From Bacteroidia bacterium (GTDB taxonomy: Bacteria > Bacteroidota > Bacteroidia > J057): a DNA stretch of 64,000 nucleotides. Below the pieces are notes generated by a model. The model did not search any database. It was not told the origin of the DNA and saw only the letters and a program-made list of their open reading frames with translations. Below are positions 12,496-54,392 of this stretch, piece after piece. Position 1 is the first letter of the stretch. Each line of letters opens with the position of its first letter. Made by a program: the position numbers and the translations under genes. Location of the stretch: positions 1 through 64,000 of the forward strand of contig JAUIKF010000023.1 in NCBI GenBank assembly GCA_030430575.1. The letters are read 5' to 3'.

Positions 12496-13572
12496 TTATA
12501 ATCTCCTCCCCCGATGGATCATCCACTGATCCAATAGAACCATCGCAGCCATTGCCTCCACAATAGGCACTGCTCGTGGAACCACGCAAGGGTCGTGGCG
12601 ACCTTTCCCTTCCAATATGACAGATTCCCCTTGTTCATCCACACTTTCTTGGGGCTGCATAATCGTAGCCGTGGGCTTAAAAGCAACGCGAAAGTAGATG
12701 TCTTCGCCATTGCTGATACCACCTTGAATGCCCCCAGAGTGGTTGGTATGGGTACGAATTCGGTCCCCTTCGCGATAAAACAGGTCATTGTGCTCAGAGC
12801 CTTTCATGCGCGTACCTGTAAAACCACTGCCCAGCTCAAATCCCTTCACGGCATTAATACCTAACATAGCAGCACCTAATGCTGCTGAAAGCTTATTGTA
12901 AATCGGCTCGCCGATACCTGGCGGAACGCCGCGGACACGGCAAGTGATAACGCCTCCCACCGAATCACCCGCTTTGCGGATGCTATCGATGAAATGGTAC
13001 ATTTTTTCCGCAATGATGGGGTCAGGACAGCGGACCGCCTGTTGGAAGGAGGTGTCCAACTCAAAAGATGTTGGTTCTTCCTTCATCTCAATCTGGTGAA
13101 TGGAACTCACCCATCCTTGAATCTCAACATGAGAAAGCCTTCCAAGCACTTGCTTGGCGACAGCCCCGCCGATGACTCGAGCCAGGGTCTCCCTGGCTGA
13201 AGCGCGGCCTCCACCGCGATAGTCTCGGGTGCCATACTTGGCCTGGTAGGTGAAGTCTGCATGAGATGGGCGAAAGGCTTTTGCCAAATGATCGTAATCG
13301 CGTGATCGCGCTTGCTGATTGGGCACCCAAAAGGAGATAGGGGTGCCAGTAGTCAATCCTTCAAAGACCCCTGACTGAATCACAAACTGGTCGGGCTCTT
13401 TGCGCTGCGTCGTGATACGACTTTGTCCCGGACGACGACGGTCTAGTTCGGCCTGGATGGCCGACAGGTCCAGTGCTATCCCTGAAGGACAGCCATCGAT
13501 CACCACGCCGATGCCTGCGCCATGTGATTCTCCAAAGGTGGTTAGGGTAAATAGCGTGCCAAAGGTGTTCAT
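12496..13572 (-). CDS. aroC: chorismate synthase
   Basis: A 358-residue enzyme of the shikimate pathway that converts 5-enolpyruvylshikimate-3-phosphate to chorismate using reduced FMN. Diagnostic motifs are GESHGAGIGVVIDGCPSG at the N-terminus, RRRPGQSRITTQRKE, the arginine-rich YRGGGRASARET and GGISNGEDI near the C-terminus. Length is normal. It lies downstream of the mlaF-like gene on the same strand, separated by a palindromic repeat array, so read-through is possible but would have to cross that structure. Confidence 0.95.
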   Translation of the reverse strand: MNTFGTLFTLTTFGESHGAGIGVVIDGCPSGIALDLSAIQAELDRRRPGQSRITTQRKEPDQFVIQSGVFEGLTTGTPISFWVPNQQARSRDYDHLAKAFRPSHADFTYQAKYGTRDYRGGGRASARETLARVIGGAVAKQVLGRLSHVEIQGWVSSIHQIEMKEEPTSFELDTSFQQAVRCPDPIIAEKMYHFIDSIRKAGDSVGGVITCRVRGVPPGIGEPIYNKLSAALGAAMLGINAVKGFELGSGFTGTRMKGSEHNDLFYREGDRIRTHTNHSGGIQGGISNGEDIYFRVAFKPTATIMQPQESVDEQGESVILEGKGRHDPCVVPRAVPIVEAMAAMVLLDQWMIHRGRRL

Positions 13573-13575
13573 AGT

Positions 13576-13813
13576 GGTTGAGACCGCTCCCTGCGGTCGC
13601 TGCGAGACCGTTCGCTAGCGCTCACTGCGAGATCGTTCGTCGCTTTGCTCCTCACTGCGAGACCGCTCGGCTCGAAGACTCGCCTCGCTACGAGACAAAA
13701 GACACTTTTTCCTGTCTCGTAGCGAGTCTTCGAGCGGTCTCGCAGTGAGGCCTTCAGGCCGAACGATCTCGCCTCTCGCAGCGAGGGCTGAGCTTGCCGA
13801 AGCCCGAGCGGTC
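13576..13813. repeat. modular palindromic repeat array, copy A
   Basis: This GC-rich spacer is made of short units with the core GAGA(C/T)CG followed by TTCG or CTCG. The centre is a long hairpin: 13651-13696 pairs with 13714-13749 (words CTCACTGCGAGACCG, CGAAGACTCG, CGCTACGAGAC and their complements), with two 5-base bulges and a loop of about 17 bases. Similar arrays lie at 14597-14745 and 42334-42568. No protein is supported here. Confidence 0.75.
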
Positions 13814-16895: not shown

Positions 16896-17049
16896 GGGTG
16901 AGGAGGAGGAAAGTAAAAATAATTAATAATAAACAAGGAAGTCAAAAAGGAAGAATGACTTGGTTTGTAAACTGTTCTCCTGCAGGCATCTACGCATCTC
17001 CTCATTCAAAATTCAACATTCAATCATTCAAAATTCAACAATCACCTCC

Positions 17050-17760
17050 TTGTCCCAAACAAAATCCATTATCACATTTAAGAGCGTAAGTGCCCAATTC
17101 CTTGACCGTACCGTGTTAGAAGGGATTGATTTTGAGGTTCATATGGGCGAATTTGTCTACTTGGTGGGACGTACAGGTTCGGGCAAAAGTACGATCCTTC
17201 GCATGATCTATGCGGACCAGCACCCATCGAACGGTTTCATTCGAGTAGGAGACATGCATTTGGGGCAATTGATGGGAAATGATATTCCTTTCCTTCGGCG
17301 GAAGATGGGCATTGTCTTTCAAGACTTCCAACTTCTCCCAGACCGTACGGTGTACCAAAATATTCATTTTGCCCTCCGCGCCACGGGCTGGCGCGACAGC
17401 CGCAAGATCAAGCAACGCATCAGCGAAGTTCTCATCCAGGTGGGGATGACTGGCAAAGGCGAAGCCATGCCTCACCAGCTCTCAGGCGGAGAGCAGCAGC
17501 AAGTCGCCATCGCACGTGCGCTTATCAACGACCCAATCGTCCTCATCGCTGACGAACCCACCGGAAACCTCGACCCCGAGGCCAGCGACAAAGTCATGGA
17601 CATTTTACAAAAAATCAACCTCTCTGGAACGGCCGTCCTCATGGCGACGCACGAATACAGTATCCTGAAGCGATATCCTTCGCGGGTGATTCAGATCGTG
17701 GATCAAGGCTTGGTGGATCATCCCAAGGCGCAAGGGTTTTTAGAGGAATATTGGAAGTGA
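17050..17760 (+). CDS. ftsE: cell-division ABC ATPase FtsE
   Basis: An ABC ATPase of about 236 residues. Motifs are [10 protein letters not shown] (Walker A), the Q-loop [16 protein letters not shown], the signature [15 protein letters not shown], Walker [13 protein letters not shown] and the switch His in ATHEYS. The [11 protein letters not shown] and EPTGNLDPE forms are diagnostic of FtsE, which with FtsX controls peptidoglycan hydrolases at the septum. I start at the TTG at 17050 ([13 protein letters not shown]); the frame extends to an ATG at 16960, but that stretch is ATTCAAAATTCAACA-type spacer repeat. ftsX is not adjacent, as is common in Bacteroidota. Confidence 0.85.
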
Positions 17761-26978: not shown

Positions 26979-27077
26979 TAGAATGATAGAATGATAGAAT
27001 GATAGAATTGAGGATGAGTGAATGGTAATGTCTTGTTCTAATTCTATCATTCACTCATCCCCTCATGCTATCATTTC
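26976..27077. repeat. TGATAGAA tandem repeat and long inverted repeat
   Basis: Four exact copies of TGATAGAA (26976-27007) begin at the miaB stop codon. The sequence then continues TTGAGGATGAGTGAATG, and after a short loop the complement appears: AATTCTATCATTCACTCATCC and CATGCTATCATTTC. The whole gap between the convergent genes can fold into one hairpin and may act as a bidirectional terminator. Confidence 0.7.
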
Positions 27078-27082
27078 TTCCC

Positions 27083-29806: not shown

Positions 29807-30191
29807 GTTAGAGAGGTTAGTTTATGTGTTGTTACAAAAATGATTCGCATCATGGCTTTTGCCAATCAGCTAATTTAACACATAACTATCTGTAGGCAAA
29901 GTCAGTTGGCTGACATCGCAAGAATGGCATACAGGTTTTGAGTTTTAGGTTGAGTGTTTTGGGTTGAATTTGCGCGGATGTACCATCGCTTTTTTGCTTT
30001 GTAAAAGGTAAAGATGTGATATTCGATCACTATACATCCAAACGGTTGTGGTGATAATATAAAAATAGAATCAGCATTTATTGTAAAAGACCTGCCAGGA
30101 TCACTCCTAGCAGGTCTTTTCAAATTTGTCATGTTTGAAGCTTCCCAAAAAGAATCCCCAAACTCAAAACGCAAAACCCCAAACTCAAAAC
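29807..30191. repeat. spacer with large GGTTTTGAGTTT inverted repeat
   Basis: This 385-base gap has no gene. The left arm at 29934-29972 (GGTTTTGAGTTTTAGG and following) is complementary in large part to the right arm at 30160-30192 (CCCCAAACTCAAAACC and preceding), which abuts the pckA stop codon. The pckA terminator (30085-30120) lies between the arms. Related words occur at 53450-53551 and 58499-58520. Confidence 0.6.
30085..30120 (-). terminator. intrinsic terminator after pckA
   Basis: The arms AAAAGACCTGC and GCAGGTCTTTT are separated by a short spacer that can pair further (AGGA/TCCT). Read on the minus strand the stem ends in a T run. The near symmetry would let it work in both directions. 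Confidence 0.8.
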
Positions 30192-31772
30192 CTATCTCTT
30201 AGGTCCAGCCTCTACAATAGCAGGGTGCACTTGTTCTGCAAATTGGGTGAAGTTCTTTTGGAATAGCTGAATCAGCTTGTTCTTAGTTGCATCATATCCT
30301 GCCTGGTCCGCCCAAGTGTTTTTGGGGATCAAAAGTTCTGAAGGGACATTGGGACATGAAGTAGGTACTTCGAAGCCAAAATGTGGATCCACCACCATCT
30401 CTACTCCCTCAAAGTCGCCGTTGTGAATGGCATCGATGATCGCCCGGGTGTATCTCAGTTTGATCCGAGACCCTACGCCATGAGCTCCGCCTGTCCAGCC
30501 TGTATTCACGAGCCATGCAGTCGCATTGTTTTCCTTGATCTTGCGGGCCAGCAATTCCGCGTATTTGTTGGGGTGCCACATCATAAAGGCCGCGCCGAAG
30601 CAGGCAGAAAAAGTAGCCTCAGGCTCGGTTACGCCCATTTCTGTCCCTGCTACTTTGGCGGTATAGCCAGAGATAAAGTGATAACTCGCCTGCTCAGGAG
30701 ACAAACGACTGATGGGAGGAAGTACGCCAAAGGCATCACAAGTGAGGAAAATTACATGATTGGGCTGTCCAGCGGTACAGGGGATTTGGACGTTATCGAT
30801 GAAATTGATAGGGTATGATGCACGGGTATTTTGGGTAATAGATACATCGGTGTAATCTACTTTGTGAGATTTGGGGTCATAGACGACATTCTCCAATACA
30901 GTCCCAAAACGAATGGCATTGAAAATGTCTGGTTCCTTTTCAGCAGACAAATCAATCACCTTGGCATAACATCCTCCTTCAATGTTGAAGATTCCATTAT
31001 CAGTCCAGCAATGTTCATCGTCACCGATGAGCCTACGCTTAGGGTCGGCACTCAAGGTGGTTTTGCCAGTACCTGAAAGGCCAAAGAGAACAGAGACATT
31101 ATCGTTTTCACCGACATTGGCAGAGCAATGCATAGGGAGAACATTGTGCAATGGCATCAGGTAATTCATCACCGAGAAAATACCCTTTTTCATTTCCCCT
31201 GCATACTCAGTTCCCAAAATGACAATCTCCTTGGTTTCCAGGTTCATGTTGATACTGGTTTTGGAGGTCATTTTGGAAGTGTAGCGGTTGGCGGGAAATC
31301 CTCCCCCATTGTACACGATGTAGTCGGGTTCGCCGAAGTCAGCCAATTCCTCGGCTGTAGGCATGATCAGCATGTTTTGCATAAATAGGGCATGATAGGC
31401 CCGGGTGCAAATAATGCGGACTTTCAGCCGATATTTGGGGTCCCATCCTGCAAAAGCGTCAACGACAAACAACTGCTCACGGGTGTTTAAGTAGTCACAT
31501 GCACGCTCTTTGTTGATCATGAACACATGCTCGTCCATTTCAATATTGACACTGCCCCAATCTATATTGGTATCAGAAGGCGATTGACGGACAATGCGCT
31601 TGTCTTTAGGGCTACGGCCCGTTTTTTCGCCTGAATAGACCAGCAAAGCACCGGTATCTGAAATGGCAGTGCCTTTCTCTGTGCGAAGCGCAATTTCATA
31701 CAGACTTGGCACACTACTGTTTCGGTGAATCTTTTCCACCTCAATTTTGTACTGATGAAGGTTAAAACTCAT
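30192..31772 (-). CDS. pckA: phosphoenolpyruvate carboxykinase (ATP)
   Basis: An enzyme of about 526 residues that converts oxaloacetate to phosphoenolpyruvate in gluconeogenesis. Visible motifs are [19 protein letters not shown] (kinase-1a region), the P-loop [16 protein letters not shown] and the metal-binding [19 protein letters not shown]. Length is normal. I start at the ATG at 31772 ([11 protein letters not shown]). The frame also contains a start at 31814, but that lies inside the promoter -7 box. The promoter carries a perfect palindrome at 31837-31858, which points to specific transcriptional control. Confidence 0.95.
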
Positions 31773-34467: not shown

Positions 34468-34479
34468 AAGAATTATTCA

Positions 34480-34568
34480 TTGATTGATTATTGATTCATA
34501 AATTGTTCGTTTTTAGCAATGCATAATCAATAATCATTCATTCATTCAATCACTCAATTAATAATCTT
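34480..34568. repeat. AT-rich inverted-repeat spacer (ATTGATTATTGATT words)
   Basis: ATTCATTGATTGATTATTG on the left is complementary in part to CAATAATCATTCATTCATTC on the right, giving a long imperfect hairpin between the prenyltransferase and rhomboid genes. Confidence 0.6.
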
Positions 34569-34571
34569 TAC

Positions 34572-39149: not shown

Positions 39150-40202
39150 TTAATAATTTAAGTATACGTCACGCAATTTCTCAAAATAATCTTCCTTCAG
39201 AAACAATTTGGAACGAAACCGAAGCTTCTCTGCAAAAGAGGATAAGCGGTCAGGACCTGCTAATAACCATTGGATTTTTTCAGAAAGCTGCTCACCCGAA
39301 TCGAAATAATAATCTCCCTCTCCCGCCACTTCCCGGTGCGCCGGAATGTCAGAAAGCAGGCAAGGCAAGCCCGCTGCCATCGCTTCTGCCACAGCCAACC
39401 CAAACCCCTCAAATCGCGAAGCAGATACAAGCAAATCATACGTAGGGAGTTGATTCAACACCTCCTTATCATGTCCCATCAAGCGAACATGGGACAGTTT
39501 TTTTTCGGTAATCATCAAGGCTAATTCTTCGCGAAGAGGCCCTTCTCCAAAAATATCTAGGCTAGCCATAGATGGGGGCAGTTCCAGCATCGCTTCCACC
39601 AAAAGCATTTGCTGCTTCTCTGGCCTTAAATTCCCTACTGAAACAATCTTTACAGGTCCATTTGGTGGCTGTAATGGGCGAATCTTTGTAGGAATATGGA
39701 CAAAATTGTGAAGAACAGTTTCTCGATGTGATATCCCAACTTGTGGTCCCACACATGCTTTCACAGCTTTCGAAACATAAATCGTATGCATACGATCTCG
39801 GTAAGTCAAGCGATCCAGCCAGCGCATCCAGTTGCGATACTGAGCGGTATTTTGGGGATCATACAGCAAGCTGTGGTAGGTGGTGACCAGCTTGACATGG
39901 GAGGGACAAGCCTGCCTCGCTACCATTGTCGCCCAATAAAGGTGGCTGTGAACGATGGCCACTTTTTCTGCTTGAATAATTCGTTTAAGCCGCCTTACAG
40001 CACGGAAAAAATGCCCTTTGCGCTTCATCCCAAGGCAATGCACACCCTTTACCTGTGGTGGCCAATCGTTCCACTCATCTTGTCCCTTCAAGTACACCAA
40101 AATATGCGCAACATCGGGCATGCCATGAATCACATCATGTACGATACGCTCGGCACCGCCAATTCCCAGGCTATCGATGATATGTAAAATGGTAGGCTTC
40201 AA
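39150..40202 (-). CDS. GT4-family glycosyltransferase
   Basis: A 350-residue GT-B glycosyltransferase. The N-terminus IDSLGIGGAERIVHD is the typical acceptor-domain loop. The C-terminal domain has VSVGNLRPEKQQMLLVEA and the donor-binding EGFGLAVAEAMAAGLPCLLSD, the E(x7)E motif of GT4 enzymes. The start codon is TTG (40202); no ATG lies upstream in frame. The donor and acceptor sugars are unknown. It lies behind FkbM and SGNH genes on the same strand, which fits a surface polysaccharide or glycolipid pathway. Confidence 0.87.
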   Translation of the reverse strand: MKPTILHIIDSLGIGGAERIVHDVIHGMPDVAHILVYLKGQDEWNDWPPQVKGVHCLGMKRKGHFFRAVRRLKRIIQAEKVAIVHSHLYWATMVARQACPSHVKLVTTYHSLLYDPQNTAQYRNWMRWLDRLTYRDRMHTIYVSKAVKACVGPQVGISHRETVLHNFVHIPTKIRPLQPPNGPVKIVSVGNLRPEKQQMLLVEAMLELPPSMASLDIFGEGPLREELALMITEKKLSHVRLMGHDKEVLNQLPTYDLLVSASRFEGFGLAVAEAMAAGLPCLLSDIPAHREVAGEGDYYFDSGEQLSEKIQWLLAGPDRLSSFAEKLRFRSKLFLKEDYFEKLRDVYLNY

Positions 40203-40206
40203 GGAT

Positions 40207-40346
40207 GAATTTTGAATGATTGAATGGTGAATTTTGAATGAATGGTGAATGAGTGAATGGTCAACTTAGGGGATAAACGGCGGATCAATTGCACAGCTAC
40301 TTCTTTTTATTCAAAATTCTTTCATTCAACATTCAAAATTAATTCC
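40207..40346. repeat. GAATTTTGAATG inverted-repeat spacer
   Basis: The left arm (40207-40260) has repeated GAATTTTGAATGATTG and GAATGAGTGAATGG words. The right arm (40309-40346) reads TATTCAAAATTCTTTCATTC and TTCAACATTCAAAATTAATTC-type sequence, its complement. The arms enclose a loop of about 48 bases between the SGNH and GT4 genes. The right arm overlaps the SGNH stop. Confidence 0.65.
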
Positions 40347-41431
40347 CTCAAAAACTGATGTCCCAAAGGACTAAAATGCCCGTCACAATCGAATGATAAA
40401 TACGGATAAGTCAAATTATTTTTCTCAATAAAGGTTTTTGCCTCTTTATACCCATCAACAAACGGGATGCCTTCATCCTCCAAAAATGCCCTAAAACGCT
40501 GGTAAGGCTGCTGGAAGTCGTATTTTCCTATTTCCTCCCCCAGCATTTCTGCTAGTTCTGTTTTATTCATAAGCTCATAGATAGAAGGAATGAGGATTAG
40601 GGTAAAATCGATTTCCTGGCTATCACAAGTCGCAAAAAGCGTCTTAGATGAGTGGTTCATTGCCGCTGCCGCTTCGCGCCATGGCTCCGACGGGTTGCGC
40701 AAAAATACGCTTAGCTCGAAAGGCAGTCGAGACTCCCCTCCTGGGGCTGCGCTCATGATATGACGCAGCTTATTGAGCTGCTGGATCACATGACTGCGCT
40801 TGAGCCATTGCCATCGACTGGTCTCACTATAATTTTTGTCCAAGACATAGTTCCCTGCTTTATCCTTGACCCAATGGGCGAGGTAGCCGCGATTGCCGCC
40901 ATTGGCGAGCTGCTCAAGCGCCAGCGAGTTATTGCGGATGTCATTGGCGAGGTAAACAAAAAGGTAGACCTTTTTGAAGGGAATCTTTTGCGAAAAGTGC
41001 AAGAAATGCACCCATTGGGCGGCAGTCCCCGTCGAACTCATGCCAAAATTGAGGTGGTCATAGACGCTGTCGAGGGCGTTTAGTTGATAGATAAAATGCT
41101 CATCCTGAGACACTTGAACCCCTTCCAGCATGGAATCCCCAAAGTAGGCGATTTTTTGCGATTTAGCGGGATTCAACTCTGCGGCGCGCATGCCCAGCGA
41201 ATTGATAGAGAGGTCCTCTACAGTGTAGCAGTCCGCGTAGCGGGCTGCAAGCTGATTGGGGACATGCCAGATGCCTAGGTCCTCATCGACGTAGTGATGG
41301 AGGGTCGTTTTCCCAGGATAAGGAACTACCCGCAAGATACCTTCTGCAATTAACCCCACAGCCAAGAGAATAAACCCCCAAACACTCAATACCCTCAATA
41401 AAAATCTGACCCTCAGGATTTTAATTTCCAT
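40322..41431 (-). CDS. membrane-anchored SGNH/GDSL-type hydrolase
   Basis: A protein of about 369 residues starting at the ATG at 41431 (MEIKILRVRFLLRVLS); an ATG at 41443 is also possible. One N-terminal membrane helix (SVWGFILLAVGLIAEG) anchors a hydrolase domain. Its SGNH signature is visible as block I IAYFGDSMLEG, block III VYLANDI and the late Asp-His pair DCDGHFSPLGHQF. These enzymes often add or remove acyl groups on polysaccharides. It overlaps the FkbM gene end by 11 bases, which supports an operon with FkbM and GT4. Confidence 0.8.
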   Translation of the reverse strand: MEIKILRVRFLLRVLSVWGFILLAVGLIAEGILRVVPYPGKTTLHHYVDEDLGIWHVPNQLAARYADCYTVEDLSINSLGMRAAELNPAKSQKIAYFGDSMLEGVQVSQDEHFIYQLNALDSVYDHLNFGMSSTGTAAQWVHFLHFSQKIPFKKVYLFVYLANDIRNNSLALEQLANGGNRGYLAHWVKDKAGNYVLDKNYSETSRWQWLKRSHVIQQLNKLRHIMSAAPGGESRLPFELSVFLRNPSEPWREAAAAMNHSSKTLFATCDSQEIDFTLILIPSIYELMNKTELAEMLGEEIGKYDFQQPYQRFRAFLEDEGIPFVDGYKEAKTFIEKNNLTYPYLSFDCDGHFSPLGHQFLRELILNVE

Positions 41432-42311
41432 TTTGATTTTCATTTTTATTCCACACGGCCCATAAATCAAAATGACAGCCTTGGAAGTCATCCTGAGCTG
41501 TCACAGGTCTGCCAGTCACAGCCTCTTCCATTTGGTACCCCAATGCTGCCAACCATCCAATAACTGCGGCCGCACTGCTTCCATGCACCTGCAAATTAGC
41601 CTCATCAATTTCAATAAACAGGTTTGGATGAAATCTTTTTAACGTTTTTTGACCGCCCCTCAAAACGGCCCATTCATACCCTTCAACGTCTATTTTTAGC
41701 CAATCCATTCGCTCAAGTTTTAGACGTACCACTGCTTCATCAAGCGTATCAAGTACTACTTGTATTCCCTCATCTGAAACAGCAATGCGTTTCGTCCCCG
41801 AATTGTCTGTCCGAGGTGCATGCATCCATGCGTACCCTGGGGCTTCTCCTAAGGCTTTTTGAACAGCTGTCACTTGCATAGAAGGATTTAAGGCCAAGTT
41901 TTTCTTTAACCGCTCAAAATTACTAGGATCAGGTTCAAAGGCGATTACCGCTCCTTTTTCCCCTACCATTTGTTTAGCTTTCAAACTAAATTCCCCCATA
42001 TTCGCTCCAACATCCAGAAAAGTCACTCCTGGCTGGATCGCCTGAAAAAGGCGTTCCCGCCCTTTGTCTCGAATCCCCCAGTATAAGTGCCAATCCACGA
42101 AATCACTCAAATCCAATTGAAATTGAATTTCATTGATTGTCACAAGGCGTACCGTGCCCTTCGGATATTGATAGGCATTGGGAGGGAGCTTTGCCAGCCA
42201 ATGATTTGGCAATCGCCCATAGGTCAAGGATCGCAACCCTTGCTCTAGCATTGGTATGCGAAAAACCTGTCGTAGCAGGTTGAGAAAATGAGTTTTTGGG
42301 GATTTTTTCAT
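41421..42311 (-). CDS. FkbM-family methyltransferase
   Basis: A methyltransferase of about 296 residues. The SAM site is VTFLDVGANMGEFSL, followed by IAFEPDPSNFERLKKNL and the DWLKIDVEGYEWAVLRGG motif that defines FkbM methyltransferases. These act on sugars or other small acceptors, often in polysaccharide loci. I start at the ATG at 42311 (MKKSPKTHFLNLL); the frame continues upstream through repeat array C, which is not credible coding sequence. It is divergent from cysC. Confidence 0.87.
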   Translation of the reverse strand: MKKSPKTHFLNLLRQVFRIPMLEQGLRSLTYGRLPNHWLAKLPPNAYQYPKGTVRLVTINEIQFQLDLSDFVDWHLYWGIRDKGRERLFQAIQPGVTFLDVGANMGEFSLKAKQMVGEKGAVIAFEPDPSNFERLKKNLALNPSMQVTAVQKALGEAPGYAWMHAPRTDNSGTKRIAVSDEGIQVVLDTLDEAVVRLKLERMDWLKIDVEGYEWAVLRGGQKTLKRFHPNLFIEIDEANLQVHGSSAAAVIGWLAALGYQMEEAVTGRPVTAQDDFQGCHFDLWAVWNKNENQNGN

Positions 42312-43214: not shown

Positions 43215-43325
43215 AGGAATTCTTTCATTCAACATTCACCCCTTCGATACCCTTCGACAAGGCTCAGGGGGAACTCAGGGCAAGCATCCACTCATTCAAC
43301 ATTCACACATTCTATCATTTCCCCT
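43215..43325. repeat. ATTCAACATTC spacer with dispersed CTTCGACAAGGCTCAGGG
   Basis: The cysC-cysD gap contains CTTCGACAAGGCTCAGGG (43252-43269) and AACTCAGGGCAAGCAT (43272-43287), shared with 7627-7651, flanked by CATTCAACATTCAC-type words. It is noncoding. Confidence 0.65.
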
Positions 43326-44232: not shown

Positions 44233-44239
44233 AGGCAAT

Positions 44240-44320
44240 GGAAAATTGAAAATGAAGAATTAAGAACGAATAATTCTCAATTTTCTATTCAACATTCATC
44301 ATTCAACATTCATAATTCCC
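44240..44320. repeat. ATTCAACATTC inverted-repeat spacer
   Basis: AAATTGAAAATGAAGAATT on the left pairs in part with AATTCTCAATTTTC on the right; CATTCATCATTCAACATTC follows. It is noncoding, between cysD and cysN. Confidence 0.55.
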
Positions 44321-47162: not shown

Positions 47163-47254
47163 TTGCGGAACAAGGATTGGAGAACAAGGATTGAAGAAGG
47201 GAAATAGCCTCCTTACTTCATAAATTATCATTCCTTGTTCGATATTCGTCAATC
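47161..47254. terminator. convergent hairpin with the 20-bp dispersed repeat
   Basis: The arms GATTGCGGAACAAGGATTGG (47161-47180) and 47227-47254 (TCATTCCTTGTTCGATATTC and GTCAATC) pair with small bulges. Inside, TTGAAGAAGG pairs with CCTTACTTCA. It lies between the convergent btpA-like and L,D-transpeptidase genes and probably acts as a shared terminator. The right arm is repeated exactly at 17791-17810. Confidence 0.55.
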
Positions 47255-47257
47255 TCC

Positions 47258-47869
47258 CTAATGCCTAATCGCCACCTTAGTCCCCACAGACAAAAAGGGA
47301 TACAATTCATTTACATCTTTATTTTGCATGGAAATGCATCCTAAGGTCCAATTGAAGCGATTGGGGATGGCATAGTCCTGGCCATAAGGTACGCCGTGGA
47401 TGCCGATTTCTCCCCCAATATTTGAACTGGCAGGGATCTGGCCTTCTGCAATCGCTTGGCGATGTTTTTTCCATGAATCCGCTGTAGGGTAATCTATCCA
47501 GATGAATTTTTGCCATTTGGGATGCTCCCGCATTCCTCGGATGTGGAAGGTGCCTTCTGGGGTACACTTATCCCCTTGGCGCAATTTGTCATCTATTGGG
47601 TTTTCTCCAAAAACAACCGCATAATGCTTGACAACGATGCTATCCGCTATGAAAGAGAGTTGGTAGGCAGATTTATGGATTCGCACATAGCAGTCCTTGC
47701 CTTCCAGACCGAGATAAGCCAACCTATTACTTAAGTCGACCGCATACAATGAATCTTTGGGCTCAGCCTGAGGAAGTTCCTGCCGGAAAAAAGGTTCAGG
47801 CCTCCAAAAGATGGTCAATAAAGCGCATCCAAGAACTAAGAGCAATAAGAGATAAAAAAGGGTACGCAT
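47258..47869 (-). CDS. L,D-transpeptidase (YkuD family)
   Basis: A 203-residue envelope protein with one N-terminal membrane helix (MRTLFYLLLLLVLGCALLTIF). The YkuD domain has CTPEGTFHIRG, the HG motif EIGIHGVPYG and the catalytic Cys in WTLGCISMQNKDV. These enzymes form 3-3 peptidoglycan cross-links or attach proteins to the wall. It lies downstream of the ABC exporter on the same strand, with a long hairpin spacer between. Confidence 0.86.
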   Translation of the reverse strand: MRTLFYLLLLLVLGCALLTIFWRPEPFFRQELPQAEPKDSLYAVDLSNRLAYLGLEGKDCYVRIHKSAYQLSFIADSIVVKHYAVVFGENPIDDKLRQGDKCTPEGTFHIRGMREHPKWQKFIWIDYPTADSWKKHRQAIAEGQIPASSNIGGEIGIHGVPYGQDYAIPNRFNWTLGCISMQNKDVNELYPFLSVGTKVAIRH

Positions 47870-47879
47870 GGGGAGGTAA

Positions 47880-47997
47880 TTTTGAATGTTGAATGAAAGA
47901 ATTTTGAATGGGAATTTGGGATTAAATGATAATTATTGATTCACAATTCACTCCTCCCTCATTCAAAATTCATCATTCTCCATTCAAAATTATTTCA
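47880..47997. repeat. TTTTGAATGTTGAATG inverted-repeat spacer
   Basis: TTTTGAATGTTGAATG and GAATTTTGAATGGG on the left are complementary to TCATTCAAAATTCATC and CCATTCAAAATTATT on the right. It separates the L,D-transpeptidase from the ABC exporter. Confidence 0.6.
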
Positions 47998-49902
47998 CTA
48001 TCTATATCCTTCGGCTTGCAGCTCAAAAAGTTCTGCATAGCGTCCACGTAAGGCATGAAGCTCTTCATGGGTGCCCATTTCTAGCCGTTTGCCTCCCTCA
48101 AGCACAAGAATCCGGTCCGCCATACGGACGGTGGAGAATCTATGGGAAATCAATACCGCTGATTTTCCTGCTGTCAACTCAGCGAAACGCTGAAAGACCT
48201 CATACTCAGCGCGGGCATCCAAGGCGGCAGTGGGTTCATCTAGGATCAGAAGGGAAGCGTCACGCATATAGGCGCGTGCCAAGGCGATCTTTTGCCATTG
48301 GCCGCCAGACAGTTCTACCCCTTGATTGAACCGCCTGCCGAGGCGTTGTTGAAGGCCATCAGGCAATTGGCTGATCACGCTGTCTGCCAAGCTCAAAGAG
48401 GCAGCTTCCTCAATTCTAGGCACATCTTCTTTGGCCTCGATCCTACCAACGGCGATGTTTTCAGAGGCACTGAGGTGAAAGCGGACAAAGTCTTGGAAGA
48501 TGACCCCAATGGCCGCCCGATAAGCTGTCAAGTCATATTCTTTAATGTCACGACCATCTAATAAGATACGCCCTTCGTCGGGGTCGTAAAGACGTGCTAA
48601 TAGCTTAACCAGGGTAGTTTTGCCTGCACCATTTTCCCCTACCAGCGCCAATTTTTCGCCTGCATGTAAGTGAAAAGAAAGATCTTTTAAGACATAGGCA
48701 TCTGTTTTCGGATATTTGAATGTGACGTTTTCAAATGTGAACCCTTGTTTAATCTTTTTGGGAAAGGGAAGCGCCTCCGGCGTAGAGGTGATTTTAGGTT
48801 CCATTTCAAAAAAATCGAACAGATCCTGCAAGTACAATGCGTTTTGGGCAATGCTTGAAAAACGAGAAAGAATACCACGTAATAGGCCTCGAAGCCGTGA
48901 AAAAGAGCCTGCCAGGAAGGTAAGGTCACCGATGGTCAATTGATCGCTTCCACTAAATATTGTGATGCCAAATACTTCTATTGGTACACCAATCGTCTGG
49001 AAAATGATGACAATATAGGCCGCATAATACCCTATATCTCCCAACCCGTTAAATACAAACCCCCAGATGGCCCGCTTGATCGCAAGGGCCTTATTGGCTC
49101 GGTAATATTTGTCGGCAAGCTTGGCAAAAGAAGTCCGAATAAAATCTGCCAACCCAAATATCTTCATTTCCTTGGCGGTCTCATCACTGGCCCCGATGTA
49201 TCGGAGGTAGTCGAGTTCTCGACGTTCTGGTGTCCAGTTTCTCGCGAGTGAATAGCTTCGCTGATTGAAGTAAGTTTCACTCAGGAAGGCCGGAATCACT
49301 GCCAAAACGAGCAAAAGGATCAACCAAGGATTGAATATCACCAATCCTGCCCCCAGGAATATGATGGTAATCATATCTTGAACTTGGGTGAACATCTGTG
49401 ACATCAGGACAACTCGCCCAGTCGTCTGACGGCGAGCTCGCTCTAGCTTGTCATAAAAAGTTGCATCCTCAAATTGGGGGAGATCCAATTTGGCAGCATG
49501 TGCAATTAGGCGCTCCGATGTCTTATTGGAAAATAGGTCTCCCAGTAAGGCATCCATCAAGCTGACCGCCCTGCTCAGCAAGGCGCTCAATAAGGCCAGG
49601 GCAAATTCAAATGCCACATAACGCCACATACTTGCCATGTCGCCACCCGTATGGCTTGCCAATAAGACAACCTCATCAATGATGAGCTTTCCGATATAAA
49701 GCGCTGTGACAGGTATCCCTGCTTGTAGGACACGTAATAGGCTGTTGGCCAGGGTCATGGGGGGGTGAGTCACCCAGACCAGTTTGAGAAAGCGTGGAAG
49801 GCTTTTGAGGGCTTGGAGATTCTCCCGCCAGCTAAGCGGTTTTTCTCGCTCCCAGGGTTTACTCGTTTTTTTTACTCCAAATATTCTAGAAAAAAATGAC
49901 AT
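47998..49902 (-). CDS. ABC exporter (fused permease and ATPase)
   Basis: A 634-residue type IV half-exporter. An N-terminal six-helix membrane domain (about 45-330) is followed by an ATPase domain: Walker A GENGAGKTTLVKLL, Q-loop VIFQDFVRF, signature LSGGQWQKIALARA, Walker B LLILDEPTAALD and the H-loop ISHRFSTV. The membrane part (PPMTLANSLLRVLQAGIPVTALYIGKL) resembles lipid or peptide exporters. Substrate unknown. A minus-strand TATATTTG at 50075-50082 could be its -7 box, but no -33 was found. Confidence 0.88.
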   Translation of the reverse strand: MSFFSRIFGVKKTSKPWEREKPLSWRENLQALKSLPRFLKLVWVTHPPMTLANSLLRVLQAGIPVTALYIGKLIIDEVVLLASHTGGDMASMWRYVAFEFALALLSALLSRAVSLMDALLGDLFSNKTSERLIAHAAKLDLPQFEDATFYDKLERARRQTTGRVVLMSQMFTQVQDMITIIFLGAGLVIFNPWLILLLVLAVIPAFLSETYFNQRSYSLARNWTPERRELDYLRYIGASDETAKEMKIFGLADFIRTSFAKLADKYYRANKALAIKRAIWGFVFNGLGDIGYYAAYIVIIFQTIGVPIEVFGITIFSGSDQLTIGDLTFLAGSFSRLRGLLRGILSRFSSIAQNALYLQDLFDFFEMEPKITSTPEALPFPKKIKQGFTFENVTFKYPKTDAYVLKDLSFHLHAGEKLALVGENGAGKTTLVKLLARLYDPDEGRILLDGRDIKEYDLTAYRAAIGVIFQDFVRFHLSASENIAVGRIEAKEDVPRIEEAASLSLADSVISQLPDGLQQRLGRRFNQGVELSGGQWQKIALARAYMRDASLLILDEPTAALDARAEYEVFQRFAELTAGKSAVLISHRFSTVRMADRILVLEGGKRLEMGTHEELHALRGRYAELFELQAEGYR

Positions 49903-54316: not shown

Positions 54317-54392
54317 GAGGAAGGGAAAAAATAGGAATTGCCTTTTATTCAACATTCAATCATTCAAAATTCAGTCATTCAACATTCATTCC

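Follow-up and report, generated by a model that had tools for sequence, protein, structure and literature searches.

ATTC-type words are a real, non-chance component of the spacers of a Bacteroidia bacterium (GCA_030430575.1), and they belong to a wider collection of palindromes that are made of words, run outward in order, and fall into families partly different from those of the nearest relative compared. We lean towards reading these words as arms, some of them unpaired halves, of repeats that are dispersed imperfect palindromes, have a REPIN-like layout, and inflate the spacers. The window is the whole stretch of 64,000 nucleotides that was analyzed (positions 1 to 64,000 of contig JAUIKF010000023.1), and the sample is composed of the window together with 60 stretches of the same genome, with 1.17 Mb readable and 72 kb masked. 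The 60 stretches come from contigs among the matches listed, with the later picks lying mainly at or beside listed words; therefore, the word densities of the sample exceed those of the genome. Whole-genome tallies are given for ATTCAAAATTC and for the 31–32-nt pattern. Genes were called with a simple custom hexamer caller, so gene edges are approximate.

In the whole genome (8.16 Mb), ATTCAAAATTC was found at 314 sites (182 + 132) versus nine (3 + 6) for the reversed word. The window has 25 near matches to it with one mismatch, versus a mean of 4.05 and a maximum of 13 in 100 shuffles. The intergenic and coding counts in the sample are 109 and three, respectively, a near-absence from coding DNA. 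When 676 spacers were each shuffled with dinucleotides kept, the 99 observed sites stood against a mean of 1.03 and a maximum of three in 30 runs, and both ATTCAAAATTC and its close form ATTCAACATTC are strongly over-represented. The first-pass annotation had allowed that the words may be no more frequent than expected from AT-rich simple sequence. The words are indeed AT-rich and the sequence before starts is 65% A+T, but the window, genome, and shuffle counts are all far above that expectation, which rules out chance as an explanation and leaves it a negligible probability.

The usual unit of the ATTC family is 31–32 nt long and consists of two ATTCAAAATT-type words approximately 22 nt apart with ATTC in the middle. 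Among 74 elements, the step types are 7-7-8 in 35, 7-8-7 in 16, 7-7-7 in 11, and other in 12, and the spacings of arrays in the sample are chiefly 7, 14, 15, 21, and 22, i.e., mixed 7 and 8. The common ATTC 32-mer has one strand without G, so no G–C stem is possible within it. Viral contigs gave no exact match to one ATTC 32-mer pattern, and Rfam gave no match on the window at gathering scores. A total of 105 arrays were identified: nine within called genes, five without a called neighbor, and 91 with both flanking genes. The last group lies closer to the edge pointed at in 69 cases and to the opposite edge in 20, with two ties (p = 1.8e-7); the median distance is 10 nt to the edge pointed at versus 85 nt to the edge behind. 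Opposite arrays within one cluster (gaps ≤150 nt) always run GAATTTTGAATG then CATTCAAAATTC, and such strict-word inverted pairs form a minority (13 of 92 clusters). For neighbors 360–400 nt apart, two of opposite order and one of the same order were found.

The words are present at all six places in the window where the first-pass annotation had reported them. Its inverted pairs hold at two of these places (40208–40340 and 47878–47991), and the other four are one-sided. The first pair has a right-type arm on the minus strand at 40208–40239, 5 nt before the TTG start of a minus-strand glycosyltransferase ORF (39150–40202), and, after a 69-nt middle, a left-type arm on the plus strand at 40309–40340, which contains the stop of a minus-strand ORF (40322–41491). 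The latter ORF ends, final codons and stop included, within the ATTC element (40322–40340); at E 1e-6, Pfam gave no match to its protein. In the second pair, a right-type arm with steps 7-8-7 on the minus strand (47878–47909) stands before an L,D-transpeptidase (YkuD) ORF (47258–47869), and a left-type arm on the plus strand (47961–47991) lies 6 nt past the stop of a minus-strand ABC gene (47998–49902). The one-sided sites are all on the plus strand. An element with steps 7-7-8 (17004–17035) precedes an ABC-transporter ATPase gene (Pfam) called at 17050, a start that is uncertain (longest ORF from 16960), and an array at 54347–54386 lies 6 nt upstream of a tryptophan-dioxygenase gene. In the cysC–cysD gap, two ATTCAACATTC words surround a CCCTTCG..CTCAGGG insert (43227–43304). 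In the cysD–cysN gap, ATTC words directly upstream of cysN (44287–44318) stand beside an other-word hairpin on the plus strand (44237–44289, arms 44237–44253 and 44273–44289; fold z −1.75). The CCCTTCG..CTCAGGG motif occurs 41 times in the 1.17-Mb sample, adjoins ATTC-type words in seven of these, and is also found within AACAAGG-family arms. Two contigs of assembly G001 (C32 and C9) both seemingly end in the cysD–cysN gap, so a repeat there may have broken that assembly.

The ATTC family is one of approximately twelve word families alike in layout, a breadth that the first-pass annotation had missed. In the window, other families are represented by an AACAAGG-type palindrome (GATTGC..AACAAGG) at 47163–47257 in a convergent gap (fold z −1.63), a AATCAATAAT-family palindrome at 34468–34571 in a codirectional gap (fold z −3.23), a GAGACCGCTCG-family palindrome at 13573–13813, and a CTATCATT-family palindrome at 26979–27082 in a convergent gap. 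AAACTCA heptads were also noticed at 30152–30192, next to where a minus-strand ORF ends (30192). Among codirectional spacers, 212 of 390 contain words of the approximately twelve families; the convergent and divergent counts are 66 of 111 and 43 of 105, respectively. Most families have one preferred form upstream of starts and its reverse complement downstream of stops; for instance, TTCTATCAT has 26 + 27 preferred versus 1 + 2 opposite placements and CGAGCGGTC has 6 + 23 versus none, and the ATTC word is less strict (67 + 36 versus 9 + 22).

The word order is outward. Searched with regular expressions over the twelve families, 162 spacers have all left-type words before right-type words, none shows the opposite order, and 13 are mixed. 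The CACGGATT family, whose pattern overlaps itself, is involved in 10 of the mixed spacers. With that family set aside, opposite-type word pairs run left–right in 394 cases and right–left in none within a family, and in 154 versus nine between families, and the outward order holds in 22 of the 22 gaps whose left and right arms come from different families only. The twelve families, among which the CCCAAAAC family has hardly any members, and their orientation were chosen by hand from the same data, and the order and pairing counts lean on that choice; the polarity test was therefore repeated without hand-made families. In this half-versus-half test, 348 polar 9-mers were learned from one half and were consistent in 2,231 cases and inconsistent in 155 (93.5% consistent) in the other half, with 192 and 47 in divergent gaps alone, these being counts of overlapping, non-independent 9-mers rather than significance tests.

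Pairing of arms is a property of the gap and not of the gene. Within the outer 70 nt, and over all families, same-family pairs number 54 versus 4.7 expected in 372 codirectional gaps; 100 convergent gaps have 25 versus 3.2 expected. Same-family arms flanking single genes number nine versus 6.0 expected (n = 829), and genes as repeat-flanked cassettes are rejected. For the ATTC family, codirectional gaps contain 19 left and 27 right arms, which form seven pairs. Counted anywhere in the gap, same-family pairs occur in 91 of 384 codirectional, 32 of 103 convergent, and 16 of 99 divergent gaps; in the last, edges are therefore avoided and pairs are not absent. In codirectional gaps, the pairs lie at medians of 14 nt past the upstream stop and 34 nt ahead of the downstream start; in convergent gaps, the two stops are 19 and 20 nt away. 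In 13 divergent cases, the starts are 65 and 88 nt away, in gaps that are also longer, a distance that fits removal of promoter-hitting insertions.

The arms fit their own partners no better than others. The mean own-gap complementarity is below the cross-gap mean in nine of 10 families, in five of which it is lower than in at least 98% of 2,000 re-pairings, and the own partner is the best partner in only three of 133 pairs. Selection for pairing within the gap is rejected by this lack of fit, which is worse than chance partners in several families and is consistent with copies of an asymmetric element rather than arms co-evolving at each place. The AACAAGG family has two types of arm, and 20 of its 25 pairs contain both, 11 one way and nine the other (Fisher p = 0.005); the element is therefore an asymmetric palindrome copied in both directions, a picture expected from the dispersal of a defined element. 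A strict two-type rule was not upheld for paired ATTC arms, two of nine inverted pairs being 7-7-8 on both sides. Judged by eye, paired ATTC elements have loops that seem unrelated, and whole-palindrome copying is therefore the weakest step for this family.

The 31–32-nt ATTC format is lineage-specific: a pattern that matches chiefly the 7-7-8 and 7-7-7 forms was found 85 times (49 + 36) here versus none in 21 other genomes of the order searched. The cysC–cysD gap, whose genes were identified by APS kinase and PAPS reductase domains (Pfam), is 122 nt long with ATTC words here versus 13 nt without repeats in a same-genus genome. Both results support the spreading mechanism that had been proposed as possible from the sequence alone. 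The same-genus genome is the nearest compared, and with CysD at 83% identity, it is too distant for empty sites, and thereby MITE-type target-site duplications, to be read base by base. A total of 37 neighboring gene pairs have the same placement in the two genomes; several are weak matches that may not be orthologues. A few matched gaps (gene identities 38–85%) have different words in the two genomes. For instance, ATTC words here are matched by a GGCAGTT palindrome (L081:1830) and by GATTAGCAGA words (L089:9635) in the same-genus genome, and the AACAAGG palindrome at window 47163–47257 is matched by other nested palindromes. At window 52538, a gene overlap of 1 nt here contrasts with a distance of approximately 180 nt (hit to hit) and a GAGAGTAGAGAT array there (L234, about 2307–2489). 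Other matched gene pairs are repeat-free in both genomes. Shared words exist as well: of the 46 match rows obtained in the same-genus genome, 38 belong to the AAACTCA array at window 30152–30192. Two repeats of approximately 80 bp (L070:8126–8205 and 12582–12661) have 72–94% identity to many same-genus places.

Strong arm complementarity was found in 70 of 340 codirectional gaps of 60–400 nt here versus 5.5% of mismatched pairs, and in 14 of 104 versus 2.9% in the same-genus genome, where direct likeness of the ends is raised too (8.7%). Two other genera gave one of 58 and two of 46, and a more distant genome gave six of 54 versus 8.5%. In convergent gaps, inverted repeats are present in each of the five genomes, as expected from ordinary terminators. 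In the half-versus-half test, the same-genus genome yielded 33 words with 104 consistent and 12 inconsistent cases, 200-kb samples of the two other genera yielded no learnable polar words, and the distant genome yielded seven words with six consistent and 12 inconsistent cases. This genome reduced to 10 loci still yielded 6 to 24 words (19–57 consistent, 0–5 not), so small samples are not the cause of the missing polarity. Words learned here transfer weakly to the same-genus genome (294 versus 181; others 58/44, 104/62, and 240/200), and words learned there transfer well to this genome (129 versus 19). In the same-genus genome, CTGCCAACT is polar (2 + 14 versus 1 + 2) and ACCCGAAAC is not (13 + 22 versus 7 + 20). 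Within the same class, a genome from another family contains ATTCAAAATTC at 85 sites and the reversed word at one. Of twelve of its loci, all but L266 were inspected by eye at their matches: reversed words followed by forward words were seen at L261 and the overlapping L264/L265, a single one-sided array at L267–L270, and a lone word at L260, L262, L263, and L271; further minus-then-plus neighbors are found among the matches listed.

Cyanobacterial spacers contain short tandem heptamers and small dispersed repeats. By description, the present words are similar to these as heptamers and small repeats located in spacers. The small dispersed repeats are named in part of PMC3116915, and the heptamers in part of PMC4679880. 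REPs and REPINs are described, in portions of PMC3116915 and PMC3733652, as extragenic, dispersed inverted doublets with predicted hairpins and with singlets read as remnants, having several families per genome and lying mainly between codirectional or convergent genes; a GTAG or CGTC tag is a further feature (PMC3733652). Measured against those portions, the repeats described here resemble REPINs in the over-representation of inverted doublets (codirectional gaps, all families) and REPs, as a bias only, in the distribution of pairs over codirectional, convergent, and divergent gaps. They differ in that the ATTC unit itself is no palindrome and has one strand without G (this family only), the arms are arrays of 7/8-nt words, and approximately twelve families have a common outward order that extends across families. 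The Y1-transposase domain (PF01797) occurs at three places here, one with an internal stop, with the same number in the same-genus genome and zero to two in each of 11 other genomes searched. The single flank inspected among the three has no word of four families, just one CTTCGAC; a RAYT link was not found there. The organization is REPIN-like, one REP feature fails, and the repeats are at most candidate REPs.

TAACTGA heptads, known from Beggiatoaceae, cyanobacteria, and five Bacteroidetes, are characterized in the corresponding part of PMC4679880 as intergenic direct repeats, mostly a few nucleotides upstream of a start codon and occasionally reversed close to a stop; the main genome studied has one inverted case. 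As far as that part goes, the ATTC words are alike in being intergenic, with an overlap in host phylum (some Bacteroidetes), and unlike in having mixed 7/8-nt arrays, often inverted partners, and approximately twelve families; their arrays face starts in 60 cases and stops in 31. TAACTGATAACTGA is absent from the sample. In the open-access literature, no report of this repeat system was found, and papers containing the 11-mer are, by title, on other subjects.

It is possible, though unlikely, that selected RNA hairpins at transcript ends or between cistrons (terminators, RNase barriers, or processing sites) underlie the pattern and that the shared words are incidental. This would agree with the unpaired arms of codirectional gaps of at least 100 nt, where left arms are on the stop side in 33 of 37 cases and right arms on the start side in 32 of 47, and with edge-lying same-family pairs, which number 79 over 472 codirectional and convergent gaps versus one over 96 divergent gaps. 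Folding beyond shuffles is likewise in its favor, with a mean z of −2.54 in codirectional and −3.16 in convergent gaps (60 sampled gaps each) versus −0.45 in 39 divergent gaps; the whole window gap 47870–47997 has a z of −6.2, and folding is weak at 40203–40321 (−0.58) and 54317–54392 (+1.29). Folding is thus strong in some gaps only, and the common role in transcript processing raised in the first-pass annotation is a candidate role. However, folding is unspecific as proof, because genomes without the words fold too (codirectional mean z −1.56, −1.67, and −2.11). The same-genus cysC–cysD gap has none of these repeats, which also speaks against selected hairpins. A T-run within 25 nt past the last right-arm word occurs in 12 of 81 codirectional pairs versus 37 of 176 gaps without family words; it is not raised, and the arms are therefore not standard intrinsic terminators. 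Short terminator-like hairpins, scanned with loops up to 10 nt, are no commoner with pairs than without words (codirectional 7/91 versus 24/178; convergent 2/32 versus 8/42; not significant), and as RNA the own pair is slightly stronger in two of eight families, none beyond chance.

Start-proximal translation signals similar to TAACTGA heptads, in which the words form an unstructured leader without G, have a rather low probability. The ATTC word does lack G, and 22 of 43 arrays facing a codirectional start end 5–15 nt upstream of it. Nevertheless, of the 91 arrays with two neighbors, 60 face starts and 31 face stops, the latter being at least equally close (median 6 versus 18 nt), and families whose strand facing the start contains G share this layout. 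Both standard terminators and pure start-codon signals are poorer explanations than dispersed repeats. Slightly more doubtful still is edge-writing, by which arms would be laid at gene ends with fixed polarity and independently of a partner: the order kept in every different-family gap and the unrelated-looking ATTC loops speak for it, but same-family pairing is approximately ten times the expectation, and the facing of unpaired arms in divergent gaps is unbiased (13 of 23).

The reading that we prefer, dispersed imperfect palindromes, would work as follows. Approximately twelve families are present in the spacers of this genome, most of them with arms made of 6–9-nt words, and the arms read outward, with the left form behind the left gene edge and the reverse complement before the right edge. 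Short hairpin-forming, non-autonomous, REPIN-like units may have been copied into spacers, after which arms would be altered by 7/8-nt slippage and partners lost, and lone arms would be remnants. Copies hitting genes or promoters would presumably be purged by selection, and transcribed copies would give hairpins between genes. Standing against this reading, the PF01797 places give no transposase tied to any family, ATTC loops look unlike one another, the invariant order in different-family gaps needs nesting and loss under palindrome copying, pairs do occur in divergent gaps, and the opposite polarity of ATTC words is not rare. A bolder proposal, which we hold to be improbable though a little less so than the translation signals, is that one process writes the spacers of the genus, using word arrays that draw on a dozen unrelated vocabularies and take their orientation from the gap, with left-type words first even between non-pairing families; the vocabulary at the same gap would differ between species, and the layout would be kept.

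With dispersed repeats as the favored explanation, this genome provides a case, open to testing, in which short hairpin-type repeats have inflated bacterial spacers and rewritten them within a genus. Every model of repeat spread has to account for an outward order that extends across unrelated families.
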